Of a stretch of 64,000 bases of DNA, positions 14,250 through 52,406 are shown one piece after another; the first letter of the stretch is position 1, and every line of letters starts with the position of its first letter. The notes under the pieces are model-generated. The model was not told the DNA's origin. It saw nothing but the letters and a program-made list of their open reading frames with translations, and ran no database searches. Source of the stretch: Treponema sp. (GTDB lineage Bacteria; Spirochaetota; Spirochaetia; Treponematales; Treponemataceae); assembly GCA_016281495.1 (NCBI GenBank), contig JAEEIU010000015.1, forward strand, positions 124,001-188,000, written 5' to 3'. The translations under genes and the position numbers were made by a program.

Positions 14250-16169
14250 TTCAAGCTGATAGGCACCTGCATCAAGGTTTTTATAGAACTCTTCATCAGG
14301 TATGGGTTTCCCGAACAGGAAGCCCTGTATTTTCTCGCAGCCGTTGTTCTTCAGGAACTGATAGGCCTCGTCTGTTTCAACTCCTTCTGTAAGAGTGCTC
14401 ATGCCAAGTTCTTTTGCCATGATTATTATGTTCTTTAAAATGAGTTGTGCCTTCTGGTTGCCGGAGAAACCGCTCAGGAATTTCATGTCGATCTTCATCA
14501 TGTCAAAGTCATATTCCTTAAGTACGTTAAGGCCGGAATATCCCGAGCCAAAGTCATCAAGCCACAGGGCATATCCGCTGTTGTGCAGGGTCTTTAGCAT
14601 GGCTTTAAGCTTTTCGTCATTCTCGGAAAGGGTGCTTTCTGTTACTTCTATATGAATCAGCTTTTTGTCAACGCCGTATTTTTTCAGGCATCCTTCTACA
14701 TCATCCACAAGATTGGTTGAATCAAAATCTAGCTTGGAGAAATTCAGCGATACGGGTATAAGGGTAAGCCCGTGTTCTTTTGCATAAACAAAATTCCTGC
14801 ATACTTTTTCCAGGACATACAGGTCAAGCTTGTAAATCTGGTGGTATTCCTCCAGGGTCTGGATGAAATCGGAAGGAGAGAGGAATCCATACTCGCAGTC
14901 ATCCCATCGTGCAAGGGCCTCAAGTCCGCAGAGTTTTCCTGTGTTTGCATTTACCACCGGCTGATAGTAAACCTTGATGCGTTCTTTTTTAATGGCATTG
15001 TCAATGTTGTTGATTATGTACTGCTTTTTATAGAAGTTGCCCGCCATGGAGTTGTCATACTCGCAGTAATCGTTGTTGTACCTCTTCTTGATTGAATAGC
15101 AGGCATACCGGGCATGGTCGCAGGCAATAACCGGAAGACATTCCCTGTCCTTGGGCCTGTAACCTCCTACTTTAAGGCCGAGCATCACTTCATATTTTGT
15201 TCCCAGCATGTTGCGCTTTAGGGTTTGGATTTTTTCGGGTATGGCTTCGTTCTTTGTAAGCACGACAAAATTGTCATTGGAAAAATGTGCGACAATCGAA
15301 TTCTTGAAAATTTTGTTGAGCATGTCAGCAAATTCCTTTAGGAAATCGTTGCCTTCCCAAAAACCGTATTTTTCGTTTATTGTCTTAAAGTTCTCGATGT
15401 CAAGGAAAAGGAAAATAAGATCGCCTATTTCAACTGACTCATCGTGCAGAAGGTCCAGGGCCTGACTCCTGAAATAATGCATGTTTGCTATGCCAGTAAC
15501 CTCATCACTTATGGAAAGCTTAAGGAGTATGCCGTGGGCGCGGTCAAGCTTTTCGCCTTTTTCTGCTTCCTTTAGTTTCTGATGATAGGCGTTTATTGCA
15601 CTCATTAGAAGGGAGATGAAGACAATAAAAAGGTTTACCTTTGTTGCAAAGGTGGCGGGCGTAAAGCGGTTGCAGAGCCAGAAGAAAACGGCATAGGTCA
15701 GCGAAAGGAGTAAAAATGAATAAATGGGCCTCCAGACGACAAACGAAAAGACAAAGATGGTCATTGTCATCAATGTGATGAACTGCTCACCCTTCTGGTA
15801 ATCAAGATAGGAGATGTATATTCCGAAAACCAGTGCCACTATGGAAAAGAAGTATTTGAGCACTTCCCACACGCGGCGGTTGGAACCCAGCTTTTTTATA
15901 TGACGGATTGAATAGATGAAGAGTACAATGGCAGTAAGAAGCAGGACGCTAAAGCATGAGATATGGACTATGAACCATTCGTCTGTGCGCCTTGTCTCCT
16001 CAAAAAACTGCCTTATGGAAATGTTTATTATCATGAATACTTCAAGTATTATGATTACTGAGGAAACATAAACTGCGGAACGGATATTTGATTTGTCAAA
16101 ATACCCGTTGATATAGGGTGAATGTTTGTCCGCGCCTATAAACTTTTTAATTCTGCCAAGAAGTCCCAT
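14244..16169 (-). CDS. c-di-GMP phosphodiesterase: membrane, degenerate GGDEF, EAL
   Basis: Membrane signalling protein of about 641 residues that should hydrolyse c-di-GMP. Six or so hydrophobic segments fill the first 200 residues. A GGDEF-like domain follows (SISDEVTGIANMHYF, then FKTINEKYG), but the signature itself reads SNDNF, so cyclase activity is unlikely. The EAL domain keeps all key acids: GLEALARWD, LNFSKLDF, EVTESTL, LDDFGSGYSGL, KIDMKF and TEGVET. Start at ATG 16169 is favoured over 16187 by the nearby GGAGG, although that lies only one base before the ATG. It overlaps the convergent DUF4190 gene by six bases. Confidence 0.9.
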   Translation of the reverse strand: MGLLGRIKKFIGADKHSPYINGYFDKSNIRSAVYVSSVIIILEVFMIINISIRQFFEETRRTDEWFIVHISCFSVLLLTAIVLFIYSIRHIKKLGSNRRVWEVLKYFFSIVALVFGIYISYLDYQKGEQFITLMTMTIFVFSFVVWRPIYSFLLLSLTYAVFFWLCNRFTPATFATKVNLFIVFISLLMSAINAYHQKLKEAEKGEKLDRAHGILLKLSISDEVTGIANMHYFRSQALDLLHDESVEIGDLIFLFLDIENFKTINEKYGFWEGNDFLKEFADMLNKIFKNSIVAHFSNDNFVVLTKNEAIPEKIQTLKRNMLGTKYEVMLGLKVGGYRPKDRECLPVIACDHARYACYSIKKRYNNDYCEYDNSMAGNFYKKQYIINNIDNAIKKERIKVYYQPVVNANTGKLCGLEALARWDDCEYGFLSPSDFIQTLEEYHQIYKLDLYVLEKVCRNFVYAKEHGLTLIPVSLNFSKLDFDSTNLVDDVEGCLKKYGVDKKLIHIEVTESTLSENDEKLKAMLKTLHNSGYALWLDDFGSGYSGLNVLKEYDFDMMKIDMKFLSGFSGNQKAQLILKNIIIMAKELGMSTLTEGVETDEAYQFLKNNGCEKIQGFLFGKPIPDEEFYKNLDAGAYQLEL

Positions 16170-36524: not shown

Positions 36525-36551
36525 TGTAGCAAATAAATGATGGAGGACTTT

Positions 36552-36914
36552 ATGTTTGATTACATTCTGTTGTTTGCCAGTGTCGTGGTGACTCTTTTTG
36601 CTCCGATTCCAGTCATGGTATATGAGATAATTCTTGGCATGTTGCTGTTTGTGACAACAGGTTTCATGTGTCTTGGTCCTGGAAAATATCTGTTTGCTGC
36701 ATTGTTAAAATGTATAAGGCTGTTCTGTCTCATTTTACCTGCCGTATCCCTTGGATTGACAAAGCGGTTCTTTACCGGAAATTTGATGGATGCTTTTCCG
36801 TCAGCAATAGCGTTTCTTGCCGGCAAGGTTCACGGTAGATGGTGGGTGAAGGTTGAATGTGTCGTGCGTAATAAAAATCTTGCGGTATGTGGAATGTGTG
36901 GTATAATGGTATAA
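36552..36914 (+). CDS. Short membrane protein resembling the N-terminus of FlhA
   Basis: About 120 residues with two hydrophobic segments. By eye it follows the start of the flagellar export gate protein FlhA/FHIPEP: LFAPIPVMVYEIILGMLLFVT matches the first two membrane helices with the LPLPPFLLDLLL-type loop, and LLKCIRLFCLILPAVSLGLT followed by AFPSAIAFLAG matches the LLRLALNVASTRLIL...AFGHFLVGG region. FlhA is about 700 residues, so this is only the first sixth, ending in an unrelated basic tail. Start at ATG 36552 after GGAGG. It is driven by an island operator. The resemblance is my reading; an unrelated small membrane protein is possible. Confidence 0.5.
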   Translation: MFDYILLFASVVVTLFAPIPVMVYEIILGMLLFVTTGFMCLGPGKYLFAALLKCIRLFCLILPAVSLGLTKRFFTGNLMDAFPSAIAFLAGKVHGRWWVKVECVVRNKNLAVCGMCGIMV

Positions 36915-38408: not shown

Positions 38409-39545
38409 TCATATATTCAGGTTTTTGAGCCTTGCTTCAATGTCTCCGACATAATCTGATACATATTTTTCGCGTTCAGTGTCATTCATCTTTGCAAATG
38501 TTTTGAACTCATCATTGGGTGATTTAAACTTGATAAATAAAGGTTTAAAATCAGTTACTGTTGATATCTTGTTTAACTTTTCTGTGTTTTCAGGGTCATT
38601 TTCGATTATTTGCCATATTTCATCGAGATCTGCAAATTGAAGTATAAAGGTTTTTCCGCTTTCCAAGGAAATGTTAAGATTGATCCAGGAGTTTTTTGAA
38701 GTAATATATTTCCTTGCTGCTTTTTCTGGACTATTTTCGGATATTTCAACTTTATGTTTGTTGCTTTCAAATTTTTGCTTCAATAAGGTTAAAAAACTTG
38801 TTAGTATTTGTATTTTTAATGGTTCAATTTGTTTTGATAATTCTTCTGCCAATTGAAAATAATTTCCTTCCAAAAGCAATTGCATCAGTTCTTCATTCAT
38901 GTTTTTATCAACTCCTTGGTTTGTAAGATTTTTTAAAGTCAAACTGTATTGTCGCATAATTTCTAAAACAGGTTGAGGAAGCAGGTTGTTTATCGAACTA
39001 ACAGAATCAATTATTTGGATTATATCATCCTTATACGATAGACAAATTAAATGTGTTTCATCCTCTTTTATATCTTCAATTGGTTTTTCGCCATATAGAG
39101 TCAGGTAAACAAGTTTGTAATCAGTTAGTTTTTGTTTTTTTAAATCTTCAAGATAGGCGTTCAATTGTTGGTCATGATCTGAAGTATAAATTTTGTTTTC
39201 TATAACGACTTTGTATTTTCCATCTTTTGAACAGATGTCAATATCGAGCCGACGGTTATTAGAGATAACTTCTTCTGTAAAAACTCTAGCGTCTTTTACA
39301 GGAAAATGAGTAAAACCTATTCTGTTTAGAAACTCTTTAAGAAAAAGGTCCGACATACCATGGAAACCGTTAGGATCAAGAAATGAAGCTAATAATGCAC
39401 TGTGCCGAATCTCTTTTCGTTCTATACCAATTGCTGAAAATACATTGAAATATTTTCCGCTTTTCTTCCATTCTTGTTCATGAATCTTTAATATTTCATC
39501 CGTTTCTTTGAGTAAATTTCGGTATTGTTGTACTATTTCTTCCAA
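38409..39545 (-). CDS. Second PD-(D/E)XK nuclease-superfamily protein
   Basis: About 378 residues, the same family as the neighbour at 37044 but on the opposite strand: FNVFSAIGIERKEIRHSALLASFLDPNGFHG, then RRLDIDICSKDGKYKVVIENKIYTSDHDQQLNAYLEDL with the catalytic D...ExK. The C-terminus differs completely from the neighbour, so they are not a recent duplication. TTG 39545 follows GAGG at eight bases and is preferred over a GTG at 39554. Whether it cuts DNA or has lost activity cannot be told. Confidence 0.8.
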   Translation of the reverse strand: MEEIVQQYRNLLKETDEILKIHEQEWKKSGKYFNVFSAIGIERKEIRHSALLASFLDPNGFHGMSDLFLKEFLNRIGFTHFPVKDARVFTEEVISNNRRLDIDICSKDGKYKVVIENKIYTSDHDQQLNAYLEDLKKQKLTDYKLVYLTLYGEKPIEDIKEDETHLICLSYKDDIIQIIDSVSSINNLLPQPVLEIMRQYSLTLKNLTNQGVDKNMNEELMQLLLEGNYFQLAEELSKQIEPLKIQILTSFLTLLKQKFESNKHKVEISENSPEKAARKYITSKNSWINLNISLESGKTFILQFADLDEIWQIIENDPENTEKLNKISTVTDFKPLFIKFKSPNDEFKTFAKMNDTEREKYVSDYVGDIEARLKNLNI

Positions 39546-39630
39546 GAATAACACCTCGCTTCGTATATTCTACTTTAGGAAGTTTAATAAGTCAATAAAT
39601 ATATTTTAAAAACATAAATTTCATAAATTC

Positions 39631-39665
39631 TCTATCTAGGTATGATATACCAATGATTGTATATT
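39631..39665 (+). promoter_or_regulatory. Island operator-promoter 2 (imperfect)
   Basis: TCTATCT-AGGTA-TGATATA (39631-39649), two mismatches from the consensus, then exactly 10 bases and TATATT (39660-39665). It lies 68 bases before the FtsZ-like gene. Confidence 0.6.
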
Positions 39666-39732
39666 ATCATAGTTATTGTAAAGGGGAAAGTTCCTAACAC
39701 CCAAAAAAAATACGCCACAAAAGGAGGAATAT

Positions 39733-40380
39733 ATGGCAGATTCAATTATAAAGGTTATAGGTATTGGTGGTTGTGGAATCGATATTGTCAATAGTATTGT
39801 CGACAAGGGAATAAATGGCGTTGAATGTGTTGTGATGGACACGGATAAGCTTGCGCTGGATAAGTCAAAGGCCCAGAAAAAACTTTTGATTGGAGAAAAG
39901 TCAGCAAATGGTCTTGGTGCGGGCGGACAGCCGGATGTTGGAGAGAAGTCCGCTCAGGAAGATGCCGAAGTTATAAAGGCTTTGTTCTCAGAGGGACATG
40001 ATAGCATTGCCGTCATTGTTGCAGGCATGGGTGGTGGCACAGGAACTGGTGCTGCGTCAGTAGTGGCAGAAATAGCCAAAGAAAGTGGGACATCTGTTAT
40101 CGCAATAGTCTGTAAGCCGCTTGAATTTGAAGGCGATATAAAAATGGAGTTTGCAGAGGACGGAATCAAAAAGCTGTGTAAGAACATAGACAACATCATA
40201 ACACTAAAGAACCAAGGAATTATGACAGCCATAAAAGATCCGGAGCTTTCAGGGATTTCATTCGACGAGGCAACAAAAATCATCTGTAATGTTCCGTGTA
40301 AGTTTGTTCAAATGCTTTCAGGTCTGGTTTATGATGACAATGTTAAAGGCAGCATGAAATTGATAAAGTCAATATTATGA
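39733..40380 (+). CDS. Truncated FtsZ-like GTPase domain
   Basis: A 215-residue protein that follows the N-terminal GTPase half of FtsZ almost motif for motif: IKVIGIGGCGIDIVN (residues 6-20), MDTDKLAL, GLGAGGQPDVGEKSAQ (60-75), the tubulin G-box GMGGGTGTGAA (98-108) and CKPLEFEG (127-134). It stops in what would be helix H7, before the T7 loop (NxDxxD) that completes GTP hydrolysis in the neighbouring subunit, and lacks the whole C-terminal domain. NDR of FtsZ reads KNQG here. It could bind GTP and cap an FtsZ filament but not extend one. AGGAGG precedes ATG. It is driven by island operator 2. Confidence 0.85.
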   Translation: MADSIIKVIGIGGCGIDIVNSIVDKGINGVECVVMDTDKLALDKSKAQKKLLIGEKSANGLGAGGQPDVGEKSAQEDAEVIKALFSEGHDSIAVIVAGMGGGTGTGAASVVAEIAKESGTSVIAIVCKPLEFEGDIKMEFAEDGIKKLCKNIDNIITLKNQGIMTAIKDPELSGISFDEATKIICNVPCKFVQMLSGLVYDDNVKGSMKLIKSIL

Positions 40381-40415: not shown

Positions 40416-40450
40416 TCCGTCACGTTCTGATAGACCTCCAGTGTTATAAT
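40416..40450 (+). promoter_or_regulatory. Island operator-promoter 3
   Basis: TCCGTCA-CGTTC-TGATAGA (40416-40434), 10 bases, TATAAT (40445-40450). Flanking bases (AAAAATCTTTT before, CTTAT after the -10) are nearly identical to site 4 at 41248, so one was probably copied from the other. No good -35 box apart from the operator. Confidence 0.8.
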
Positions 40451-40518
40451 GCTCTTATACAACACACGGTTGCCGGGCAAAATAAAGCCCAGTATGGAAA
40501 AACACAGGAGGCAAAAAG

Positions 40519-41181
40519 ATGGAAATGATGGAACAAAGTTTTGGGAATTATATTTACGACAATGAGAATAAATCTCTTTTTGAAAAACTTAAATCTTTGT
40601 CAAAAAACGAGCTATGTAAATACAGTCCTATAGGTTTATTTGGAGATATCGGAACTGGGAAAACTTGCTTGCTTAATGCTATTAAAGACAAGTTGCAGAG
40701 TGAACACCCTGAATTAAAAATTCTATCTATTAATGCAGAATCTTATCTTCAAGAATTTATTACGAGCGTAAAAAACGGTACAACCATAGATTTTGAAGAG
40801 AAATACAGGTCTCTTGATGCTTTATTTATTGATGATTTGGATTATTTAAAATTCAAGGAATCTACTCAGGAAGAACTATATTATACTTTAAAAGCTCTTA
40901 TTGCAAAAGGTAGTGTCATTGTATATGCATCAGTTCATTCACTTAAGCAAAAAGTTTTTTTTCAAAGGCTTGCTTCTATTCTAAAAACAGGTCTTAGCCT
41001 TAGACTTCCACAGCCATCTGAAGAAATCAAGGTAAGTAAAATCAAGCAATTTTTCCACGACAATTATATTACTTTAGAAGAATCTGATATAATCAAACTT
41101 GCATCTCAGGCAAAAAATATGTTCGAATTGGAAGGATTGTTAAAAAAGACAAAATTTCTGGAACAATGTAAAAATCGATAA
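40519..41181 (+). CDS. DnaA-like AAA+ domain protein without DNA-binding domain
   Basis: A 220-residue copy of DnaA domain III. Walker A is GDIGTGKT (42-49) and Walker B is LDALFIDDLDYL (99-110), and the stretch SYLQEFITSVKNGTTIDFEEKYR plus STQEELYYTLKAL matches DnaA closely. Domain I and the DnaA-box-binding domain IV are missing. The arginine finger region (SRF in DnaA) reads SILK, and sensor 2 (VRELEGAL) reads MFELEGLL, so both key Arg residues are lost. It may bind ATP and join a DnaA oligomer without supporting initiation. Hda/DiaA-like control is an alternative, but Hda keeps these Arg residues. AGGAGG precedes ATG; driven by operator 3. Confidence 0.82.
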   Translation: MEMMEQSFGNYIYDNENKSLFEKLKSLSKNELCKYSPIGLFGDIGTGKTCLLNAIKDKLQSEHPELKILSINAESYLQEFITSVKNGTTIDFEEKYRSLDALFIDDLDYLKFKESTQEELYYTLKALIAKGSVIVYASVHSLKQKVFFQRLASILKTGLSLRLPQPSEEIKVSKIKQFFHDNYITLEESDIIKLASQAKNMFELEGLLKKTKFLEQCKNR

Positions 41182-41247: not shown

Positions 41248-41282
41248 ACCTTCACGCTCTGATAGACCTCTAGTGTTATAAT
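41248..41282 (+). promoter_or_regulatory. Island operator-promoter 4
   Basis: ACCTTCA-CGCTC-TGATAGA (41248-41266), 10 bases, TATAAT (41277-41282). The left arm is degenerate, the right arm perfect. It drives the gene at 41318. Confidence 0.75.
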
Positions 41283-41317
41283 GCCCTTATCCAACGCACA
41301 AATACAAGGAGAACTTT

Positions 41318-41655: not shown

Positions 41656-41690
41656 TCCATCATGTTCTGATAGAGTGAGTATGTTATATT
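41656..41690 (+). promoter_or_regulatory. Island operator-promoter 5
   Basis: TCCATCA-TGTTC-TGATAGA (41656-41674), 10 bases, TATATT (41685-41690). It drives a long (about 135-base) structured leader before the gene at 41832, and possibly the downstream exonuclease, DUF262 and DnaB-like genes. Confidence 0.75.
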
Positions 41691-41728
41691 CATAGACAGC
41701 AAATGCATGAAATAGGGGAAACTTGTTA

Positions 41729-41810
41729 GGATGATGGTTCGCTGAACCGCTTGTTGTTAATAAGTTAAGTCATCCGGCGGTTTTTCTCTAGACGTCATTC
41801 AGTGGATGAC
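41729..41810 (+). promoter_or_regulatory. Structured leader with competing hairpins
   Basis: GGATGA (41729-41734) can pair with TCATCC (41770-41775); GGTTC/GAACC (41736-41748) forms an inner hairpin. Alternatively AACCGC (41745-41750) pairs with GCGGTT (41777-41782), followed by a T-rich stretch like a terminator, or GTCATCC (41769-41775) pairs with GGATGAC (41804-41810). These pairings exclude one another, as in an attenuator. No known riboswitch was recognised. Confidence 0.4.
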
Positions 41811-41831
41811 AAAAATGCAGGGGGTCACAAT

Positions 41832-42140
41832 ATGGCTATTAGTGATGTTCAGTTGAAGAACAACTATTATCAGGTTATTGATGAGAACGGTAAGAAAATC
41901 AAAGATGTTTACTATTCTTCGGTTGGCGAGTTGCAGGGGATAGGGATTGATTTCATTGTTTTCCTTAAAAACCATTATTATGCAACTTATGATGAAAATC
42001 TACGGAAAATCAAGGAAGTGCATGAAAGTTCTCTTGGCACATTCAAAAATGCTGCCGGTGTAAGCATTAATTTTATAAAGAATAATTATATTGTAACATA
42101 CGACAAGAACTTTACTAAGAAAAGTGAAAAGCATGTTTGA
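41832..42140 (+). CDS. Small protein made of three tandem strand repeats
   Basis: A 102-residue protein consisting of about 2.5 units of a 37-residue repeat, each beginning N-[NH]-Y-Y-x-x-Y/I-D-E-N-x-x-K-I-K and ending in a hydrophobic strand (ISVNF/IDFIVFLK type). The repeats suggest a small propeller- or sheet-like fold. ATG 41832 has AGGGGG at suitable spacing; a GTG reading from 41802 is less likely. Family and function are not recognised. It follows a long structured leader. Confidence 0.65.
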   Translation: MAISDVQLKNNYYQVIDENGKKIKDVYYSSVGELQGIGIDFIVFLKNHYYATYDENLRKIKEVHESSLGTFKNAAGVSINFIKNNYIVTYDKNFTKKSEKHV

Positions 42141-42773: not shown

Positions 42774-42803
42774 TAAAGGTGAAATACCTAATTGGAGGAA
42801 AAT

Positions 42804-43817
42804 ATGCAAGACAAAACAACAATTAAGAGGCTCTTTGATGAATCTGGCATTCAGTTCGCTGTACCTGCTTATCAGCGAGTATATTCGTGGGAAGTGGATT
42901 TGGATAAAAAGCAGGTTAGACAATTTTACCAAGACTTAATTGACCAAATTAAGTTTACAATGATTGGAGCTGACACAATATCTAGAAAAACTTATTTCCT
43001 GGGTCATTTCCTTTTTGAAAAGGATTCCCAAAATCCAAATAAATATTGGATAATCGATGGACAACAAAGGTTGACAACCGTTGTTGTTTTTATGAGCGCT
43101 TTAATTTCAGAGCTTAATTCAAGGGAAGAAAACGGAGAAAGCCTTTTCGATTTGAATGGTAAAGAAATTAAGCTTAACTTACTCCGGGAAAACTATCTTG
43201 TGAAAAATGGGCTTGTAAAATTTGAATCGGTTGCTTATGATAATTCAGATTTTTGTAAAATGATTTATGAAGATAATAAAAGAGTAATGACTCAATCAGC
43301 TTCAATTAAAAGAGTCTTTAATGCCTATGATTTTTTTTCGATGGAATTAAAAAACCAAACAACAGAAAATCTTATTAAGATGAAGGATACGTTGGATACC
43401 ACAGTTGTTACAACTTTTGTAGGTGATGATAAACTTCAAGCAACACAAATATATGCTTTTCAAAATGACAGAGGTAAAGATTTAACCTCCCTTGATATTA
43501 TAAAAGCATTTGTTATGCATAGACTTTGTTCGGTAAGTAAGGATTCTAAAATGGTTGAGTCTGATATTAAACAGATAGAAACTATTTTTTCCGATATATA
43601 CGAAATATCAGAACAGATGTCTGATTATTGTGATGAAGATACTGTATTAAAGTGTCATTGTAAGGCTAATATCAGGTCGAGCGGAACAAGTGTAGAGCGT
43701 GTAAAAACTTGGATAAGGAAGATAAAAACTGAGGGTGCAAATCAAGAAATAATAAATTTCTGCAATGCTTTGAAAAAATCATTTGTTACAATGAAAAACT
43801 GTATTGAGGGCTTGTAA
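42804..43817 (+). CDS. DUF262 (ParB/GmrS-like) protein, N-terminal domain only
   Basis: A 337-residue protein with the DUF262 signature: FAVPAYQRVYSWEVD (about 18-32) and WIIDGQQRLTTVVVF (about 75-89), then QIYAFQNDRGKDLTSLDIIK. The GmrSD family is a type IV restriction system whose full proteins are 550-700 residues with a C-terminal DUF1524 HNH nuclease; that half is absent and the frame ends at a normal stop. GGAGG precedes ATG 42804. It may act with the neighbouring exonuclease, or be another truncated relative in the array. Confidence 0.82.
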   Translation: MQDKTTIKRLFDESGIQFAVPAYQRVYSWEVDLDKKQVRQFYQDLIDQIKFTMIGADTISRKTYFLGHFLFEKDSQNPNKYWIIDGQQRLTTVVVFMSALISELNSREENGESLFDLNGKEIKLNLLRENYLVKNGLVKFESVAYDNSDFCKMIYEDNKRVMTQSASIKRVFNAYDFFSMELKNQTTENLIKMKDTLDTTVVTTFVGDDKLQATQIYAFQNDRGKDLTSLDIIKAFVMHRLCSVSKDSKMVESDIKQIETIFSDIYEISEQMSDYCDEDTVLKCHCKANIRSSGTSVERVKTWIRKIKTEGANQEIINFCNALKKSFVTMKNCIEGL

Positions 43818-43821
43818 ACCA

Positions 43822-44679
43822 ATGGCATCAGATATCGTGGATTATGAAACAGCATATAGCATTTTCTCTGGGATTATGCAGAAAATAAAGGGGTGGGAGG
43901 ATGGGTGTGATTCGGATTTCCTTGAAGTTGGGCTCAAGTGCCTTGAATTTCATAAAGGGGATCTGATAACTCTTGCATCATCACCATTGCCTTACAAAAC
44001 ATATTTCGCAATAAATATATTGCAAAAACTGTCTGTTGAAAAACACATCCCTGCGTGTTATCTGTCGGTTGGACTGGAAAAAAATAAACTTATTGGAAGC
44101 TGCTTGTTTTCATTAAACTCTAAAGTTGGGTATAGAAAAATCTATGATGGATTTTTTAGGTCTGAGGATGTTCAAAAGATAAATCAGTCTTTTCTGGAAA
44201 TTAAGGATTCTCCAATATATGTCGTAAACCTGCCAAATTGTAGGTTTGGGGAATGCTGTGATAAAATTCAAAGCCTTGTAGAGGAGAAAAAGATTGAACT
44301 GCTTTTCATTGATGATTTTTTTCTTTTTGAAGACCTTCTGGACAATGACAATCCTCCGCAGCATAGAAAAAAGCTGGGAGAAATAATGATTCAGTTAAGG
44401 CAAATGGCCCTGGATTATAAAATTCCAATAATTCTGATGATTGACATGCTGCCGGAAGATGAAAAAAAGAAACTGACTTTAAGTGATTTCAAAAAGAATA
44501 TGATTATTCCTTATTTGTCAGATATGGTAATTTTCATCAATCAAAATGAACGCTCAGATGATGCTTGTATGGAGTGGAATGAAATTCACGATGTTACAAT
44601 AAGTGTAGAAAAAAACAAGCCTGGATTATTATATGATTTGAATGTCCAGTATAACCAAGAACTGTCATTGTTTGAATGA
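43822..44679 (+). CDS. DnaB-helicase-like C-terminal domain with lost P-loop
   Basis: A 285-residue protein that tracks the RecA-like domain of replicative helicase DnaB: FHKGDLITLASSP (43-55), ACYLSVGLEKNKL (78-90), PIYVV, LLFIDDFFLFEDLL (Walker B, about 160-173), KLGEIMIQLRQMALDYKIPIILMID, YLSDMVIFINQ and VEKNKPGLLYDLNVQY. The P-loop that should read PSMGKT is PLPYKT, losing the GKT glycine; the catalytic Glu (FSLE) is Gly, and the KxRNGPTG finger is KNKPG. So it should not hydrolyse ATP. The N-terminal collar domain is missing. ATG 43822 lies four bases after the DUF262 stop. Confidence 0.75.
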   Translation: MASDIVDYETAYSIFSGIMQKIKGWEDGCDSDFLEVGLKCLEFHKGDLITLASSPLPYKTYFAINILQKLSVEKHIPACYLSVGLEKNKLIGSCLFSLNSKVGYRKIYDGFFRSEDVQKINQSFLEIKDSPIYVVNLPNCRFGECCDKIQSLVEEKKIELLFIDDFFLFEDLLDNDNPPQHRKKLGEIMIQLRQMALDYKIPIILMIDMLPEDEKKKLTLSDFKKNMIIPYLSDMVIFINQNERSDDACMEWNEIHDVTISVEKNKPGLLYDLNVQYNQELSLFE

Positions 44680-44703: not shown

Positions 44704-45231
44704 TTATTCAATCGGATCCGCGCAATATTCCTTTCTTCTGCATCCCTTGCAATGGGCGCCCATCCATACTTTGTCAAATTGTGTGGCGGCCTGCTTAACG
44801 AAGTCTTTGTTTTTGCTGTAGACACCGGCTTCAAAATTGCGGGTGTTTTCTCCCTTCATGCCGAGACCTGCTCCTGTTAGGTTTGCTGAGCCTACGTAGG
44901 CTGCCTTAAGGTCTAAGATGATGATTTTAAAATGAACGCGGGGGCAGAGGACTCTTTCTACTCCTTCGATTAGGGCAGGGTATTTGTCAAAATCTTCTCG
45001 GAATGCCGGACCTGGTTCCTTTGCATGAATCAGTCGGATTGCGACACCAGCTTTTGCCAGATCAGACAAGACTTCAAGAAATGGTTTTGTTCCTCTTCCG
45101 TCTTTTACGTAAAGGTCCTTTATGTCTGCCGTTCCAATCCAAAGAGTTTTTTTGCAGTCCCTTATGCGTTCAATAACTTTTTCGTAGTGGTCTTCGTTTG
45201 CTATATATTGAAATTCAGCTTCGTCAGTCAT
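44704..45231 (-). CDS. Phospholipase-D-like nuclease/phosphodiesterase
   Basis: A 175-residue protein with one HKD motif: RVHFKIIILDLKAAYVGSANLTGAGLG (H-x-K-x4-D, then GSxNxT). Single-HKD proteins work as dimers and include Nuc-type nucleases. A C-terminal Cys set CKGCRRKEYC may bind metal. The only gene of the inner island on the minus strand besides 38409. No ribosome site precedes the ATG; TTGCTT-17-TATTAT (the -10 at 45239-45244 on the minus strand) ends seven bases before it, so the transcript is probably leaderless. Confidence 0.82.
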   Translation of the reverse strand: MTDEAEFQYIANEDHYEKVIERIRDCKKTLWIGTADIKDLYVKDGRGTKPFLEVLSDLAKAGVAIRLIHAKEPGPAFREDFDKYPALIEGVERVLCPRVHFKIIILDLKAAYVGSANLTGAGLGMKGENTRNFEAGVYSKNKDFVKQAATQFDKVWMGAHCKGCRRKEYCADPIE

Positions 45232-45281: not shown

Positions 45282-45316
45282 TCCATCATCCACTGAAATA
45301 CCACCTGTATTATTTT
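45282..45316 (+). promoter_or_regulatory. Island operator-promoter 6 (imperfect)
   Basis: TCCATCA-TCCAC-TGAAATA (45282-45300), right arm degenerate, 10 bases, TATTTT (45311-45316). It drives the SMC-like gene at 45372 and probably the gene at 46029. Confidence 0.6.
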
Positions 45317-45371
45317 AAATTATATCATTAAATGATTCTTTTAACGTGTAAATTATTTTTGAGGTGATAAT

Positions 45372-45995
45372 ATGATATTGACAAATTCTGATTCTATTGC
45401 TGGAGACATGTATCTCAAAACAGTTTTAATTCATGGTTTTAAAACTTTTGCCGGGTCAACGCAAATGGAAATGTGCAGGGACTTCAATATTGTTTTGAGT
45501 CAGGACTTTTCATTGACTTATGATTTGCTATATGCCATCGACTGGGCATTTAGAAATGATTCAGAAGAGCAGGAGGTTTCGGAAGTCATTTCATGTGGAA
45601 GTGATGGTAAGCCGCTTGTGGATTTTGCAGAAATTGAGTTATGTTTTGGGGTAACCGGAAGTGATGCCCAGGATTATGTCTGCAAGAAAAGGATAAGCGT
45701 AGATCATGAAAACTCAGAGGGAAAAGGTAAGGTCACTTATTCAATCGACGATAAGGTTGTTTCAAGATATGAATATGCGTCAGTTAAAAAACTCATTCCA
45801 TTGGTTTTTGCAGGAATCATTATGGAAAATGCGAATATGTATGCAGAGGATATTAAACAGCAGTGTGCCAATAGGCAGACAGTGATTGCAACAACAGATA
45901 AATCAATTATTTCAGTGCTTAAACCCGCACATCTGATTGGACTTGTAAAGAAAGATGGAATCACAGAAGTTCATCTCTTGAGTAACGCAGATTAA
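45372..45995 (+). CDS. Mini-SMC: SMC head mimic without Walker A, hinge or coiled coil
   Basis: A 207-residue protein whose first part copies the SMC N-terminal head: MYLKTVLIHGFKTFAGSTQM (13-32) corresponds to the SMC start MYLKxIELxGFKSFAxxT, and PLVDFAEIELCF matches the following strand. Its last 40 residues copy the SMC C-terminus (QTVIATTDKSI... then a VKKDGITEVHLLS end, matching FIVITHNKxTM...GVTxxExGVSxVVSV). The P-loop (GPNGSGKSN) reads LSQDFSLTYD, no ABC signature or Walker B is evident, and the roughly 900 residues of coiled coil and hinge are gone. It cannot bind ATP normally but might dock on SMC or ScpA. GAGG precedes ATG. Confidence 0.75.
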   Translation: MILTNSDSIAGDMYLKTVLIHGFKTFAGSTQMEMCRDFNIVLSQDFSLTYDLLYAIDWAFRNDSEEQEVSEVISCGSDGKPLVDFAEIELCFGVTGSDAQDYVCKKRISVDHENSEGKGKVTYSIDDKVVSRYEYASVKKLIPLVFAGIIMENANMYAEDIKQQCANRQTVIATTDKSIISVLKPAHLIGLVKKDGITEVHLLSNAD

Positions 45996-46028: not shown

Positions 46029-46415
46029 ATGCCAAATCCAAAAGTCGGGATATTCTGGTTTTATAAGGGCAAGGTTATTTTTTCTCATGCCGTTTCAGTT
46101 GACGATGGCCTTCTTTATGGGGATGCCATAACTGGAACAAGTGATCATGCTGAATATTGGGAAGAGCTAAGAAAAGACGGAAAACTGAATGTTTTGGATG
46201 AAAGTCTGCGTGAAGAATACTTTTCCATAGCTCGTGGCCGTGTTGTTTTTCACAAGGATACTGGGAAATTCTCGCTATACCATGGTAACAACATGAAAAA
46301 GCCCGATTTGCATAAAGTTGCCTTATTCTTCAATCTGCCGGAAGATAGGACTGATTTTGCACAAGATTTGCACTATTGCGACCTTACGGATTCTGAATGG
46401 AATAAAATATTTTGA
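46029..46415 (+). CDS. Conserved small protein, unknown
   Basis: A 128-residue cytoplasmic protein, MPNPKVGIFWFYKGKVI at the start, then YGDAITGTSDHAEYWEEL and IARGRVVFHKDTGKFSLYHGN. I recall similar uncharacterised proteins (YGDAI, H-x-E-Y/F-W, P/ARGRVVF patterns) in many bacteria, but no function. AGGAG precedes ATG, 33 bases after the mini-SMC stop, so it is co-transcribed with it under operator 6. Confidence 0.72.
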   Translation: MPNPKVGIFWFYKGKVIFSHAVSVDDGLLYGDAITGTSDHAEYWEELRKDGKLNVLDESLREEYFSIARGRVVFHKDTGKFSLYHGNNMKKPDLHKVALFFNLPEDRTDFAQDLHYCDLTDSEWNKIF

Positions 46416-46428: not shown

Positions 46429-46463
46429 TCTATCAACGAATGATAGAGTAAGTGTGGTATTAA
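46429..46463 (+). promoter_or_regulatory. Island operator-promoter 7, perfect palindrome at WYL regulator 1
   Basis: TCTATCA-ACGAA-TGATAGA (46429-46447) is a perfect inverted repeat, followed by 10 bases and TATTAA (46458-46463). It precedes the WYL regulator at 46517 by 70 bases, as expected for autoregulation. Confidence 0.8.
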
Positions 46464-46516: not shown

Positions 46517-47500
46517 ATGAGTGAAAAAACACAGAGACGGAATGGGGAACGTTTCGCAATTTTGGAAAGGCTTGCAGAGATTCACAGGAAAATAAAATCA
46601 GGATGCTATCCAAACGCAAGACAGCTTGCTTATAGTCTGGAAGTCAGTGTTCCAACCATCAATCGTGATGTTGAATTTTTAAAAGACAGGTTCTATGCAC
46701 CAATTGAATATGATGCAAAAAATCGTGGATATTATTATTCTGAAGACTATGACATGCCGTTAAACCGCATTTCACCGGCAGACATGCAGGCACTTTTTTC
46801 TGCAAAGATGCTCCTTTCAAGCTACGAGGGAACTCCTGTTTATGAGGAAGCGGAAAAGATAATCGATTTGCTTACCGATACAAAAAGCTCTGGAAATTCA
46901 AGTTTCCTTAAGAGGATAGCCGTGGCACCTTCGCCAAAAATCGTTGTGGATGAAAACTTGTGGTCCAAGATAGTCAACGCCATGCAGGAAAACCACGTGA
47001 TTGAGTTTGACTATAACGGAAGATGGAATCCAGGTTCAACCCACCGCCGTGTGCATCCGTATCAGATACTACTTGATGAGGGAGTATGCTTTGTATTTGG
47101 GTATTCCGAAGAAAGGGATGCGGAACGAATTTTTGCCCTGAACAGAATTAAAAATCTTGTCGTCACAAAGAATACGTTTGAGCTGCCAAAGGATTTTGAT
47201 TTTGCCCTGCGTTGTGGCGGAGGAAAATTCGGTGTCTTTATGACTGGCGATGTGGAAGAATTCGTAATAGATTTTTATGATGAATCTCGAAACGTTGCAA
47301 AGGACTGCATTTGGGCAAATGATCAGAAAATAACGGATTACGATGAAGAATGCCGTACGCAAATCAGCTTTACTTCAACACAAAGCCTTAAAATCATGGA
47401 ATGGGTCCTTTCTCAAGGCAAAAACGCCTGCCCCGTCTCCCCAAAGTGGTTTGTCCAGGACTGGAAAAAAGAAATTGAAGCTATGTCCAAGATGATATGA
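46517..47500 (+). CDS. WYL-domain transcriptional regulator 1
   Basis: A 327-residue regulator. The N-terminal winged helix (RFAILERLAEIHRKIKSGCYPNARQLAYSLEVSVPTINRDVEFLK) is followed by a WYL domain (about 155-215: HVIEFDYNGRW, HRRVHPYQILLDEGVCFVFGYSE, RIFALNRIKNL) and a WCX dimer/tail domain. WYL domains bind oligonucleotides or nucleotides; relatives BrxR and CapW repress phage-defence genes. A perfect operator lies directly upstream and the same palindrome precedes most genes of the island, so this protein is the best candidate for their regulator, with WYL regulator 2. GGAGG precedes ATG. Confidence 0.92.
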   Translation: MSEKTQRRNGERFAILERLAEIHRKIKSGCYPNARQLAYSLEVSVPTINRDVEFLKDRFYAPIEYDAKNRGYYYSEDYDMPLNRISPADMQALFSAKMLLSSYEGTPVYEEAEKIIDLLTDTKSSGNSSFLKRIAVAPSPKIVVDENLWSKIVNAMQENHVIEFDYNGRWNPGSTHRRVHPYQILLDEGVCFVFGYSEERDAERIFALNRIKNLVVTKNTFELPKDFDFALRCGGGKFGVFMTGDVEEFVIDFYDESRNVAKDCIWANDQKITDYDEECRTQISFTSTQSLKIMEWVLSQGKNACPVSPKWFVQDWKKEIEAMSKMI

Positions 47501-47622: not shown

Positions 47623-47656
47623 TTTATCATGCAATGATAGAATAAACATGTATATT
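47623..47656 (+). promoter_or_regulatory. Island operator-promoter 8
   Basis: TTTATCA-TGCAA-TGATAGA (47623-47641), 9 bases, TATATT (47651-47656). It drives the AAA ATPase gene at 47683. The 120 bases before it, downstream of the WYL gene, hold nothing recognisable. Confidence 0.7.
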
Positions 47657-47682: not shown

Positions 47683-49347
47683 ATGGAAGAACAGGTTAAA
47701 GGCAAGAAAGTCCGCTGGAATGTCTCAAAGGCAATGTCATGTGTATACCATGTTTTATTAGGTTCAAAACTAAGGATAAGGAAGTTAAAGGCCTACACTA
47801 CAGCAATGAAAAATTTGATGTCGCTCTATAAGCTCAATCAAACGCAGGTATGGATTCTGTGCATGGCATGTGAGCGATATTTTGAATCTGAAGATACCAT
47901 CACCCTTAAAAATATTGCAAGCGACCTTGAAATGCCTGTGTTGTACATTGTCAGCTGGAAGAAAGAAATGGAGGCTCTTGTTGATAAAAGGTTTCTGGAG
48001 CAAAACGGAAGGAACGGTGCTTTCCAGCCATTAAATGACTTAAACGAATCAATCTGTGAAAATATAGAATATATACCACAGCCAGTCCACGAAGAAGATG
48101 ATATAGATTTCATAAATCATATGGCAGACCGTTATGAATCGCGTCGGGAAGAAAATAAGTCTGCAAGGGCGATACAGTGGGAGCTTGTCGGATACGAAAT
48201 GAAACATAGAAACCTTCCGGTAGTCCAGCGTGTGTTAAAAGAGATTGTAAACTTCGAAAACCGCTTTATCCTTTACGATATTGCTAATGATTTGTTGAAA
48301 GGCGGAGAGTCAAACCTGAATACAACACTGTCGGATTTGTATGATGGGGGAGAAAGATATCGGGTTGCCACAGCGATGATGGAAGAAAAACATGAATTGT
48401 TTAAGAATGGACTTGTTGAGTTTTCTAGAAAAGGAAATCTCTCTGATGCGACAATAACTCTTTCCGATAAAGGACGTAAGCTTCTGCTTGGTGATAAAGC
48501 TTTTCTTTTTGAAGATTCAATCAACGACAAAAACCTTATCAAGGTGGATTCAATTAAAGAAAAAAGGCTGTTTTATAGCGAGGATAATCAAAAGGAAATC
48601 AACCGTCTTAAGAATGCCCTGCAGGAAGAAAAACTCAAGGAAATACAGCAAAGGCTCAAGGATGACGGGCTTCCTGTTGGCGTGGCGGTTCTTCTTTATG
48701 GTGCTCCTGGAACTGGTAAGACTGAATCTGTAATGCAAATCGCAAAGGAAACTGGCCGCTCAATCGTTCATGTTGATATCAGCGAAGCAAAATCTGCCTG
48801 GTTTGGTGAAAGCGAAAAACGCATCAAGAAGATTTTTACCAGCTACAGAAATGCCTGCGAAATCTGCGAGAAAAAAGACGAAAAGATGCCGATCCTTTTG
48901 TTTAATGAAGCGGATGCGCTTATTTCCAAAAGGAAAAAAGACACTTCCGGAAACTGTGCACAGACAGAAAATGCAATCCAGAACATCATCCTGGAAGAGC
49001 TTGAAAGCCTTAAGGGCATCTTTATTGCAACAACCAATCTTGCTTCCAATATGGATTCTGCCTTTGAACGACGCTTTCTTTTCAAGATAAAGTTTGAAAA
49101 CCCGTCAACAGAAGCCATGACTTCAATCTGGATGAACAAGCTTTCCTGGCTCGATGAAAAGTCAGCCACAGAGTTTGCAAGAGACTACGACTTCTCCGGC
49201 GGCCAAATAGACAACATCGTCCGCAAGATTGCAATGAACGAAGTGATTACCGGCGAACGGCCAGCACTTTCTGATATTCACCATATGTGTAAGTGTGAGA
49301 AAATAGAAAATTCAGAATGTGGAAGACACATCGGATTTGGAATGTAA
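47683..49347 (+). CDS. AAA ATPase of the FtsH/CDC48-like group
   Basis: A 554-residue ATPase. The N-terminal half (about 1-300) is helical with winged-helix-like segments and no known domain. The AAA module follows: Walker A LLYGAPGTGKTESV (about 342-355), GESEKRIKKIF, Walker B PILLFNEADALI (Asp to Asn at the first acid, as I recall for this subgroup, but E and D kept), sensor IATTNL, arginine finger FERRFLFK, and the lid SGGQIDNIVRK. Presumably remodels proteins. Expressed from operator 8, next to the WYL regulator. AGGAGG precedes ATG. Confidence 0.87.
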   Translation: MEEQVKGKKVRWNVSKAMSCVYHVLLGSKLRIRKLKAYTTAMKNLMSLYKLNQTQVWILCMACERYFESEDTITLKNIASDLEMPVLYIVSWKKEMEALVDKRFLEQNGRNGAFQPLNDLNESICENIEYIPQPVHEEDDIDFINHMADRYESRREENKSARAIQWELVGYEMKHRNLPVVQRVLKEIVNFENRFILYDIANDLLKGGESNLNTTLSDLYDGGERYRVATAMMEEKHELFKNGLVEFSRKGNLSDATITLSDKGRKLLLGDKAFLFEDSINDKNLIKVDSIKEKRLFYSEDNQKEINRLKNALQEEKLKEIQQRLKDDGLPVGVAVLLYGAPGTGKTESVMQIAKETGRSIVHVDISEAKSAWFGESEKRIKKIFTSYRNACEICEKKDEKMPILLFNEADALISKRKKDTSGNCAQTENAIQNIILEELESLKGIFIATTNLASNMDSAFERRFLFKIKFENPSTEAMTSIWMNKLSWLDEKSATEFARDYDFSGGQIDNIVRKIAMNEVITGERPALSDIHHMCKCEKIENSECGRHIGFGM

Positions 49348-49489: not shown

Positions 49490-50185
49490 ATGTTTGAAAC
49501 TGTATCTGAATTTGATGGCATAATCAAATCTGAGTGGGGTAAGAATAATTCATTTGTAGTTCTTGATGGAATTATAGATATTGACCAATATAAAAATGCA
49601 CCTGATAAGGTTTTATGGATACTCAAAGAAGGAAATGAAAGTGGGGGAAAAGATGGAAACTGTCGGAATCATCGTGATTTTCATAAAAATGTTGCTTATT
49701 TCTATAATGGGTGGAAATCTACTTACAAAAACCTAATTAGAGCAACTTATGGTATACTTAATAATCTTTCATATAAAGATTTACCAACCTTAGATAATGA
49801 TGCAACGATAAATGGTGAAAATATCTTAGAAAAAATCGCTTTGATAAATATAAACAAAAATGGTGGTAATTCACAGGCAAACCATACGATAATAGAAGCG
49901 AATTATACAAAACATAAAGATGTTATTTTAAAACAGATAGCAGGTATTGAACCTAATATTATAATTAATTGTAGTAAAGTAAGACGATTGTTTGATGATT
50001 TAATAAAGATTTATGATTTGCAAAAGAAACAATTTGATGCACGACCTGAATTTAAATATTCAGTTGATTATGCTGAAAATTCAAAAAATTTGTTAATAAA
50101 CTATTGGCATCCTGGTGCTCATATAAAAAGTCAGGCATATCAAAAAATGATTCTTGATATTTATCAAATGTGGAGAGCAAGGTAA
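49490..50185 (+). CDS. Unknown protein, possibly uracil-DNA-glycosylase-like fold
   Basis: A 231-residue A/T-rich gene. The order VLWILKEGNES (about 38-48), INKNGGNSQANHTIIEANYTKH, a central KQIAGIEPNIIINCSKVRRLF and a late LLINYWHPGAHIKSQAY recalls an uncharacterised family with a UDG-like Rossmann arrangement (early strand with a K-E-x-N loop, late HPS-type loop). I cannot name an activity. GGAGG lies 11 bases before ATG. No island operator upstream; between two dispersed hairpin repeats (49364 and 50284). Confidence 0.6.
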   Translation: MFETVSEFDGIIKSEWGKNNSFVVLDGIIDIDQYKNAPDKVLWILKEGNESGGKDGNCRNHRDFHKNVAYFYNGWKSTYKNLIRATYGILNNLSYKDLPTLDNDATINGENILEKIALININKNGGNSQANHTIIEANYTKHKDVILKQIAGIEPNIIINCSKVRRLFDDLIKIYDLQKKQFDARPEFKYSVDYAENSKNLLINYWHPGAHIKSQAYQKMILDIYQMWRAR

Positions 50186-50339: not shown

Positions 50340-51284
50340 TTACTCCTTTTCCGAATAATAATCCAGGATTCTACGGGCAAAGCGGTAGGCGTTTTTGATG
50401 TCGGGCTTGTTTTCAAAGTATTGCTTGCGGTAGACCATGCGGTCATCGAAAAAGTCCTTTATTTCCTTTAGGGTCATTTCCTTGACGCGTGGGGAGGAAA
50501 CGAGCTTGGTGTAGACGGAAAGCATTACGGCAAAATCATTCAACAGCGGGACTTTCATGCAGTTGGCGATTGTTCCGTTGCCGATGCCAAGGTTGCCATT
50601 AATAAGTTCGAAATTGGTCTCAAGGTCAGTCTTGAAATTTGCTTGGGACTTGAACGATGTAAGAAGACATACGTTGTGTGCGCAGGCGTTGCGGATGCGT
50701 CGGACGGATTCAAAATGTTTTGTGTATTCGCATTCCATGTGCATGAAGTCATAGTAATATGCATAAAAGCAAATGAAGTCTGCAAATGTAATCATCTCCA
50801 CAAAATTCCAGACGGCCGGTGTATCCAAATACTTCTGGAATGAATTTCCGCCATAACCTGAAATCTTGGAAAACTGAACCAGGCTTTCTTTTGCCTTGGG
50901 ATGTCCTTCAAGGAACTTTTGTACGACCTCATAACCGTCATCTGCGGGATTGTTCTGGCAGTCGTTTACAAGTTTTACTTTAAGATAGTGCTCAAGGTCA
51001 ATAGTCATCTTTAGGAGAATTTTCCTTAAGAACATGTCTATTGTGGAAAGCTCAACCAAATGGCCAAAGTCAAGCCCGATGAATTTGCCACTCTTTGTCT
51101 GTTCCGTGCATGTGGAACAATATTGCTTTAGGCGGAAAAAGAAATTGTTTTTTTCAAGAAAGCTTTTTGCCTTTTCTTCATCCATCAAGTTGAATGTAAT
51201 GCCAAGGTTGTCCTTGCAATATTCAATTACTTCCGGGACTGTGAGTTTTTGGGGCTTTGCGGGTGTAAATTCTTTCTTGGACAT
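50340..51284 (-). CDS. Abi-family (AbiD/F-like) protein with HEPN motif
   Basis: A 314-residue Abi_2-family protein. Landmarks: LTVPEVIEYCKDNLGITF with KAKSFLEKNNFFFRLKQYC at the start (the family's F-L-x-x-x-N-Y-F-R-L-x-x-Y segment) and RRIRNACAHNVCL (about 195-207), which holds the R-x4-H of HEPN ribonucleases. Abi_2 proteins are implicated in phage abortive infection, probably through RNA cleavage. AGGAG precedes ATG. It lies 27 bases downstream of WYL regulator 2 in the same direction, so probably one operon controlled by operator 9. Confidence 0.87.
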   Translation of the reverse strand: MSKKEFTPAKPQKLTVPEVIEYCKDNLGITFNLMDEEKAKSFLEKNNFFFRLKQYCSTCTEQTKSGKFIGLDFGHLVELSTIDMFLRKILLKMTIDLEHYLKVKLVNDCQNNPADDGYEVVQKFLEGHPKAKESLVQFSKISGYGGNSFQKYLDTPAVWNFVEMITFADFICFYAYYYDFMHMECEYTKHFESVRRIRNACAHNVCLLTSFKSQANFKTDLETNFELINGNLGIGNGTIANCMKVPLLNDFAVMLSVYTKLVSSPRVKEMTLKEIKDFFDDRMVYRKQYFENKPDIKNAYRFARRILDYYSEKE

Positions 51285-51311
51285 TTGATGCTCCTATAAA
51301 ACTGTGTTCGT

Positions 51312-52355
51312 CTATTTCTGGATTTTTTCCCACAATGCGGTAATTTCCTGCTTCCAGCGTTTGACAAGAGAGCGTGGTGCAAGAGGTTCGGCTTGTGATC
51401 CCCATTTCATTATCTGTTCAAAAACCTTTTCTTCCTGCGCAGATGAGAATTCGATTGTCGTGTATTCGTCATTTTCCTTTATGACTTTCTGGTCATCTGC
51501 CCATTTGTGGTATTTGATCCAATCCTTTGCGTAATCAGTAAAGCGGATTTTGAACGTCTGCGTGTTGTCGTCCTTGAATGCACCAAGTCTTCCGCCACCG
51601 CTGTAATTCTTAAAGTCAAAGTCTTCGGGCAGCTCGAAAGTTTCCGCCGTGATGATTATATCTGCCATGAAATTCAAATCATATAAAAGAATCATGTCGG
51701 CGTATTCACTGTAAGCGGAAAGATAGACGGAACCATTGTCAAGAATCAGCTGATATGGCCATACCGTTCGCACTGCCTTATTGTTTTTGTTTGACTTGAC
51801 GTAGACAAATTTTAACTTGCGGTTCAATTTTATTGCTTCGTAAACCTTGTCCCAGTTTTTGACGTCGATGTCATATTTCATTTGCGGTGAGACAATCACA
51901 CGTCCAGAGGAAAACAAAATGTCTTCTTTAAACACTTTTGGTTCAAGGAACTGAATGAGTTTTGTAATGCGGTCGTAAAGGGGAGTGCCCTCGTATTGCA
52001 GGAGGAGTCCGCTCATGCTTGCAATAAGGTCAAGATTTCTTTGTGTTTCCTTTGTGTAAATCTGCTCTACATCTTTTTTTATCCTGTAGCTTCCACCTTT
52101 CTGCTTGTCTTCAATTAAATCCATGTCCTTGAGCTTTTTAATGTCTCGGTAAATGGTTATATTGGAGAGTTTGAAATGTTTCTGGAAATAGATTGCGTTG
52201 TATTTGATTTCGGGGTGATTTGGAGCGTCGCGCAATATGCAAAGAATTTCATAACCTCTATCGTCAAGGTTCTGGTCAATATCCATTAATGTTTTGTTCA
52301 GTTCGCGCTCTAGTTTTCGCTGACGTTTGTCATGTTCTTCAAGTTTAATGCTCAT
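51312..52355 (-). CDS. WYL-domain transcriptional regulator 2
   Basis: A 347-residue regulator with an N-terminal winged helix (YNAIYFQKHFKLSNITIYRDIKKLKDMDLIEDKQKGG, about 52-90), a WYL domain (LKFVYVKSNK, VRTVWPYQLILDNGSVYLSAYSEYADMILLYDLNFM) and a C-terminal WCX part. Distantly similar to WYL regulator 1 over its whole length. A perfect palindrome (52388-52406) overlaps its -35 box. No ribosome site; the -10 TACAAT ends seven bases before ATG, so the mRNA is probably leaderless. Likely represses or controls itself and the Abi gene. Confidence 0.9.
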   Translation of the reverse strand: MSIKLEEHDKRQRKLERELNKTLMDIDQNLDDRGYEILCILRDAPNHPEIKYNAIYFQKHFKLSNITIYRDIKKLKDMDLIEDKQKGGSYRIKKDVEQIYTKETQRNLDLIASMSGLLLQYEGTPLYDRITKLIQFLEPKVFKEDILFSSGRVIVSPQMKYDIDVKNWDKVYEAIKLNRKLKFVYVKSNKNNKAVRTVWPYQLILDNGSVYLSAYSEYADMILLYDLNFMADIIITAETFELPEDFDFKNYSGGGRLGAFKDDNTQTFKIRFTDYAKDWIKYHKWADDQKVIKENDEYTTIEFSSAQEEKVFEQIMKWGSQAEPLAPRSLVKRWKQEITALWEKIQK

Positions 52356-52362
52356 ATGTATA

Positions 52363-52406
52363 ATTGTATCATGGGATTTTTATATTGTCTATCAATTTAT
52401 GATAGA
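52363..52406 (-). promoter_or_regulatory. Operator 9 and leaderless promoter of WYL regulator 2
   Basis: Perfect inverted repeat TCTATCA-ATTTA-TGATAGA at 52388-52406. On the minus strand TAGACA (52386-52391) and TACAAT (52363-52368) are 17 bases apart, and the operator overlaps the -35. The site is also upstream of the hydrolase gene at 52503 on the plus strand, where a half site TGATAGA occurs at 52467-52473. Confidence 0.75.

Follow-up and report, generated by a model that had tools for sequence, protein, structure and literature searches.

Bacteria are known to restrain single core machines by means of dedicated inhibitors, among them SulA, DidA, Hda and SirA. DidA is not known to derive from the protein that it inhibits by truncation; Hda consists of the DnaA AAA+ domain without the DNA-binding domain, and inhibits DnaA. 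To our knowledge, no island is on record in which truncated copies of many core machines stand beside one regulator. The gene at positions 45372-45995 of a 64,000-nucleotide stretch of a gut-type Treponema sp. genome (GCA_016281495.1, contig JAEEIU010000015.1, positions 124,001 to 188,000; hereafter the window) encodes a truncated paralogue of Smc, here called mini-SMC, and is best explained as one cassette of such an island, in which truncated paralogues of SMC, FtsZ, DnaA, DnaB, DnaE and FlhA are linked to a WYL-domain regulator. Regulators of this class have been characterized elsewhere. BrxR, a WYL repressor, acts through inverted repeats whose halves are 5 bp apart (PMC9122601), and the WYL factor DriD (PMC12340889) is described as an activator that induces a division inhibitor in response to DNA damage (PMC4211646).

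The truncated SMC gene and its relatives

45372-45995, forward strand: mini-SMC, an open reading frame of 207 amino acids with an N-lobe whose P-loop is replaced and a putative C-lobe remnant

Judged by its sequence, this gene encodes a diverged head of SMC that has no arms. Resemblance to SMC sets in at residue 13 with MYLKTVLIHGFKTFA, behind a 12-residue extension, and a second ATG at 45408 is a possible true start. Alignment of the first 140 residues with the N-lobe of the host Smc gave a score of 91, which was reached by none of 2000 shuffled sequences, and Pfam SMC_N (PF02463) matched residues 14-137 with an E-value of 9.7e-8 and 32.1 bits, short of the curated threshold of 40. At the P-loop position, the host protein reads LLGPNGCGKSN and mini-SMC reads VLSQDFSLTYD. 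The reading frame, the SMC-like start and the replaced P-loop had all been proposed in an initial annotation made from the letters alone, and each is borne out. The same annotation saw a VITH-like strand and a GITEVHLLS terminus at the C-terminal end as SMC remnants. Taken alone, the tail of the window copy does not sustain this point, its score against the host C-lobe being reached by 949 of 2000 shuffles; the C-lobe is supported because relatives of the same layout clearly match that of the host (L083 and the contig-edge copies in L028 and L288, each with 0 of 2000 shuffles). In a comparison of the family as a whole by hhalign, the Smc N-lobes were matched at 99.7% and the C-lobe at 78% (E 1.8e-5). 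Walker A, Walker B, the signature motif, the coiled-coil arms and the hinge are all absent from the 207 residues, and an intact host Smc of 1056 amino acids, carrying LLSGGE, is encoded on another contig. A structure predicted by AlphaFold2 from two sequences was uninformative, as discussed below.

Genomes are labelled G (the window genome being G000) and loci L, where L050 denotes UBA3649/G005, L082 denotes G098:C12 and L288 denotes G226:C425. The nearest named record, Treponema sp. UBA3649, holds a 95% identical orthologue, and screening of 200 Treponema genomes with a profile found, besides ordinary smc, mini-SMCs of 191-211 amino acids in G021, G226, G098 and G224. In all of these the N-lobe runs to about 20 residues past the neighbourhood of FINGK and is joined there to the C-lobe at its Walker B strand; the signature motif, the arms and the hinge are deleted between the lobes, the signature being absent in all four complete layouts. 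The proposal that an smc copy had suffered an internal deletion and was then kept is therefore supported, both by this similar deletion in four further genomes and by a frame that is intact in two species under constraint (ratio of non-synonymous to synonymous substitution, dN/dS, 0.22; Fisher p 0.0008). Several relatives retain a nucleotide-binding site. Walker A reads GPNKVGKT in G224, which also has FLFDEID and two separate segments matching TIGR02168 (8e-32), GPSGCGKS in G021 (8e-22) and GPPKFGKS in G098 (5e-13); the motif is also present in the G226 relative, and Walker B in one relative. The P-loop is lost in the window copy, the UBA3649 copy and the edge copy in G226 (L288). Since SMC models score best on these relatives, a RecF or RecN identity, which the annotation had named as the competing outcome, was rejected for the family.

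Short SMC frames in G013, G026, G043 and G055 were rejected as contig edges or broken smc genes, and one more C-lobe lies at a UBA3649 contig edge. No armless SMC head was seen outside Treponema among the matches listed in a scan of 394 genomes of the order, from which a diverged copy could escape. The tree of mini-SMCs, read without the mislabelled duplicate row smc_L005 (= mini_G021), has long branches and is compatible with a single origin, which stays uncertain. A phage, plasmid or viral origin was rejected: mini-SMC had no match in phage, plasmid or IMG/VR collections, and no orthologue of the WYL regulator was found in IMG/VR.

Truncated core-machine genes linked to a WYL regulator

All six mini-SMCs of the genus scan, which preceded any attention to WYL genes, lie approximately 0.5-3.1 kb from an orthologue of one regulator. 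In the window, truncated copies of FtsZ, DnaA and DnaB and an FlhA-like protein are encoded within 10 kb of mini-SMC.

46517-47500, forward strand: WYL-domain transcription regulator, 327 amino acids; marker gene of the island, beside mini-SMC
39733-40380, forward strand: mini-FtsZ, 215 amino acids; TIGR00065 9.5e-54, positions 18-197 of 353
40519-41181, forward strand: mini-DnaA, 220 amino acids; TIGR00362 7.4e-40, positions 109-323 of 437
43804-44679, forward strand: mini-DnaB, 291 amino acids; TIGR00665 1.3e-23, positions 175-430 of 435
36537-36914, forward strand: mini-FlhA-like membrane protein, shortened, 125 amino acids

The regulator matches PF13280 over its cut-off (1.7e-13) and the WYL model of PADLOC (1.4e-33), with a weak, sub-threshold match to a winged helix-turn-helix at its N-terminus (PF08279, 7e-4). 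Orthologues occur in 57 of 196 genomes of the genus. Mini-FtsZ comprises the GTPase domain only, in which the tubulin signature is retained and the T7 loop and C-domain are absent. Mini-DnaA comprises the AAA+ domain without domains I, II and IV; it keeps Walker A and B and lacks the box VII arginine finger and the sensor II arginine. Mini-DnaB is the C-terminal helicase domain alone, with a degenerate Walker A (SSPLPYKT) and a replaced arginine finger. The mini-FlhA of the window is 85% identical over approximately 104 residues to a 252-residue FlhA-like protein in G226. Full-length, intact FtsZ, DnaA, DnaB and FlhA are encoded elsewhere in the genome.

These genes recur. Forty WYL loci were fetched for gene-content comparison, and they contain truncated FtsZ, DnaA (4), DnaB (6) and the N-terminal membrane domain of FlhA (about 13), as well as an N-terminal PHP part of DnaE (L114, PRK07135 8e-27). 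Of the truncated copies that later family searches added (mini-DnaBs, FlhA C-domain copies and mini-FtsZ), most lay beside WYL-like genes or palindromes, the exceptions to WYL adjacency being L287, on a short contig, and L283, L288 and L289, with palindromes only. Mini-FlhA directly adjoins mini-SMC in L049, L081, L082 and L083, and in the last three the reading frames overlap, an arrangement that hints at translational coupling and possibly at a shared function. The overlap measures approximately 16-26 bases (L082:4668-6081, L083:5579-6903). The initial annotation was right as to an smc-derived sequence and overlooked that it belongs to a series of six or more types of truncated core-machine protein that recur at WYL loci with a common palindrome.

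Across the nucleotide-binding families, the truncations share a design. All four mini-FtsZs retain GGGTGTG, end at the T7 loop and lack it. All three mini-DnaAs, from two lineages, retain Walker A and B and have lost the box VII arginine finger (SRF changed to SIL or KFF). Among ten mini-DnaBs, the Walker A lysine is present in nine, the Walker B aspartate in all and the full Walker A in six to seven; the arginine finger is present in none, despite flanking positions that are well kept (K431 in 9/10, G435 in 10/10). Arginine fingers, the T7 loop and the SMC signature are established as trans-acting elements of the parent families. As far as can be read from these alignments, most NTPase minis have preserved the nucleotide-binding side, and all have lost the element supplied to the neighbouring subunit, which is what a chain-terminating or ring-poisoning subunit would need. 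Walker motifs are degenerate in several minis.

A second common element is the palindrome TCTATCA-N5-TGATAGA, found upstream of the WYL gene and many island genes. In 727 kb of island DNA, in which related loci are not independent, there are 22 perfect, 35 one-mismatch and 58 two-mismatch copies, and six scrambled palindromes gave 0, 0-2 and 0-12, respectively, in the same DNA. This enrichment is not circular, because the loci were picked by WYL or mini-SMC and not by the palindrome. Genome-wide, five of the six distinct perfect occurrences of YCNRTCA-N5-TGATAGA lie in this island, within 16 kb. The many matches in a very large viral collection are read as chance, given its size. Several window promoters have a -10-like TATAAT after the palindrome.

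46429-46447, forward strand: perfect palindrome TCTATCA-ACGAA-TGATAGA upstream of the WYL gene, also present at many WYL orthologues
45282-45317, forward strand: operator/promoter-like element upstream of mini-SMC, TCCATCATCCACTGAAATACC...TATTAT, 3 mismatches
39631-39666, forward strand: operator-like element upstream of mini-FtsZ, 2 mismatches; it also faces the divergent gene 38409-39554
40416-40451, forward strand: operator/promoter-like element with TATAAT upstream of mini-DnaA
36490-36525, forward strand: operator/promoter-like element upstream of 36537 (mini-FlhA)
41248-41283, forward strand: operator/promoter-like element in the gap that separates mini-DnaA from a short uncharacterised open reading frame
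41656-41691, forward strand: operator/promoter-like element upstream of 41802-42140
47623-47641, forward strand: operator-like palindrome in front of the AAA ATPase gene, with 1 mismatch

The element upstream of mini-SMC is also present at the UBA3649 orthologue (L050). Other genes of the island are as follows.

41802-42140: unknown protein, 112 amino acids
42216-42773, forward strand: DnaQ-type exonuclease, 185 amino acids; PF00929 5e-19
44704-45231, reverse strand: small protein with a PLD domain and a DrmC-like match, oriented divergently to mini-SMC
46029-46415, forward strand: unknown-family protein, 128 amino acids, downstream of mini-SMC
47683-49347, forward strand: AAA ATPase; PF00004 2.9e-23, IetA-like match 1.5e-24
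49490-50185, forward strand: unknown-family protein, 231 amino acids, no Pfam match; relatives in about 10 WYL loci

Homologues of the 128-residue protein are found at nine WYL loci (L084, L050, L086, L085, L094, L092, L088, L122 and L090), and relatives of the exonuclease at other WYL loci have the palindrome upstream. An impression that the 231-residue family is UDG-like had no Pfam match behind it and was dropped. The window further contains a half-length defence protein, the N-terminal domain only (341 amino acids) of a GmrSD/DUF262 protein, at 42792-43817. At 50340-52406 an AbiD-like gene is followed by a second WYL regulator (51312-52355, reverse strand), which has its own perfect palindrome, TCTATCAATTTATGATAGA, at 52388.

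FlhA has been cut in several ways. Copies of its cytosolic C-domain (approximately positions 320-669 of 678) lie beside WYL-like genes and complement the N-terminal membrane-domain copies elsewhere (L284:8786-9967, L280:5333-6457, L285:8358-9719, L286:8700-10022, L291:1260-2624, L293:7093-8907). Membrane proteins of 267 and 259 amino acids with the palindrome upstream are encoded at L115:12430-13233 and L118:12471-13250, and that of L115 matches a segment from within FlhA (positions 291-415 of 678), a different cut of the same parent. L288 is syntenic with window positions 36.5-40.4 kb and contains mini-SMC at the contig edge, the 252-residue mini-FlhA and mini-FtsZ; the window lacks mini-SMC at the corresponding spot and has only half of mini-FlhA. 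Successive gene cassettes of L082 are set apart by repeats of the 3' portion of carB (for the large subunit of carbamoyl-phosphate synthase, identified by eye) at 466-1392, 7301-8947 and 14645-15499. Such repeats also lie at either end of L081, and L113 ends with one. The 3' end of carB looks like a tandem integration site.

Selection, proposed role and rival explanations

Most of the mini pairs that could be tested are under purifying selection. In single-pair Nei-Gojobori estimates, dN/dS was 0.38 for mini-FtsZ, 0.32 for mini-DnaA and 0.34-0.39 for mini-FlhA, and the synonymous excess was significant (p 0.0008 or less) for these pairs as for that of mini-SMC. The WYL, exonuclease and PLD genes evolve more slowly (0.07-0.12). 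Most orthologue pairs are without frameshifts or indels, and lengths are equal across species (FtsZ 215/215, DnaA 220/220, SMC 207/207). Between the window and L084, synonymous divergence (dS) was 0.22 for mini-FtsZ and 1.3 for WYL, which suggests that cassettes have been exchanged.

Together, these observations raise the possibility that WYL-controlled truncated paralogues of core machines arrest the host on phage infection or DNA damage, a proposal to which about even odds are given. The WYL protein would bind TCTATCA-N5-TGATAGA at its own promoter and at those of many genes of the island, and phage infection or DNA damage, likely sensed as nucleic acid on the WYL domain, would switch the island on. 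The resulting truncated proteins would enter the corresponding host machine, or make contact with it, as dead, one-sided subunits. Since ATP binding by the mini-SMC of the window is not expected, this protein would probably serve as an inert head that, for instance, keeps ScpA or an Smc head occupied. The combined outcome would be a multi-target brake on replication, segregation, division and flagellar assembly. In its stronger form, that one regulator and a modular, horizontally reshuffled set of truncated FtsZ, DnaA, DnaB, DnaE, SMC and FlhA lets one signal poison replication, segregation, division and motility, the proposal falls a little short of an even chance.

Several results weigh against such poisoning. 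Having lost its nucleotide-binding site, the window mini-SMC cannot engage as an ATP-bound head, and the AlphaFold2 prediction for it had a pLDDT of only 34.5. Some minis have poor operators of their own (3 mismatches for mini-SMC, 2 for mini-FtsZ). Constraint on the mini-DnaB pair was not significant (p 0.12), and of the 133 alignment columns invariant among host DnaBs, 15 are kept in no mini-DnaB, so that the arginine finger is one of several losses and plain decay is possible. The fast evolution of the minis and the exchange of cassettes would suit a decoy role, too.

That role is the principal rival: the minis would display the surfaces of FtsZ, DnaA, DnaB, DNA polymerase, SMC and flagellar export to which phage inhibitors bind and so be baits for those inhibitors, or they would be guards that signal the binding of a phage protein. 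Catalytically dead copies would be enough for this purpose, the minis outpace neighbouring genes (dN/dS 0.22-0.39 versus 0.07-0.12), cassettes were apparently exchanged, and the neighbours include, by match, WYL, AbiD-like, GmrSD-like, DrmC-like and IetA-like genes of defence type. Yet passive bait has no need of the full nucleotide-binding signatures of the FtsZ and DnaA minis, SMC and FlhA are, from general knowledge, less usual phage targets, and no phage counterpart was found. The decoy reading is considered unlikely, if deserving of serious attention. Far less probable is a new assembly, in which mini-SMC and its neighbour, mini-FlhA at four loci, form a complex of their own, such as a membrane-anchored ATPase, apart from the host machines. 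The direct adjacency with overlapping frames in three of those loci and the Walker A kept by several mini-SMCs would suit it, but in the window no intact mini-FlhA adjoins mini-SMC, whose Walker A is lost, and mini-FtsZ, -DnaA, -DnaB and -DnaE are found without mini-SMC.

There is slightly less reason still to regard the genes as debris, that is, as pieces of host genes trapped by recombination in a mobile island and now decaying. The lost P-loop of the window mini-SMC, the 125-residue mini-FlhA of the window as against 252 residues in G226, and the degenerate Walker motifs of several minis are of the kind that decay would leave. Orthologue pairs that are mostly free of frameshifts and indels and equal in length across species, significant purifying selection and the recurrent association with one regulator speak to the contrary, and on constraint and recurrence this pseudogene reading was rejected as largely refuted.

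If host arrest by truncated paralogues is true, it would be a novel way of stopping growth or of defence against phages, inhibitors of FtsZ, DnaA, DnaB, DnaE and Smc would be available ready-made, and bacteria would be seen to convert their own essential genes to regulators. The palindrome offers a direct handle for finding members whose target is yet unrecognised.

Comparison with known systems

No comparable system was found in the open-access papers searched, a set without most of the subscription literature. None of the models in PADLOC-DB 2023 covers mini-SMC, mini-FtsZ or mini-DnaB, and for mini-DnaA there were weak matches only; the island neighbours resemble parts of its IetA, DrmC, AbiD and GmrSD/HEC-06 systems. 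With Smc of the condensin Smc-ScpAB (TIGR02168, PF02463), mini-SMC shares the N-lobe sequence and the order of N-lobe and probable C-lobe, but it has about 200 residues rather than 1056 and is without arms, hinge, Q-loop region and signature motif. Mini-DnaA resembles Hda in being a DnaA AAA+ domain without a DNA-binding domain, yet it scores 137 bits as DnaA and only 45.2 as Hda (cut-off 194.8), and it lacks the arginine finger.

With the BrxR/CapW-type regulators (PMC9122601), the island has in common a WYL regulator, an inverted repeat with a 5-bp spacer upstream of the regulator's own gene and a defence-like setting. The genes linked to BrxR and CapW are those of BREX or CBASS, whereas here they are truncated core machines, and the putative operator is known from sequence. 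The DriD-DidA DNA damage checkpoint of Caulobacter (PMC4211646) is similar in that a WYL regulator controls a cell-division inhibitor, as may also be the case here; unlike that checkpoint, the Treponema island would be modular and directed at many targets.
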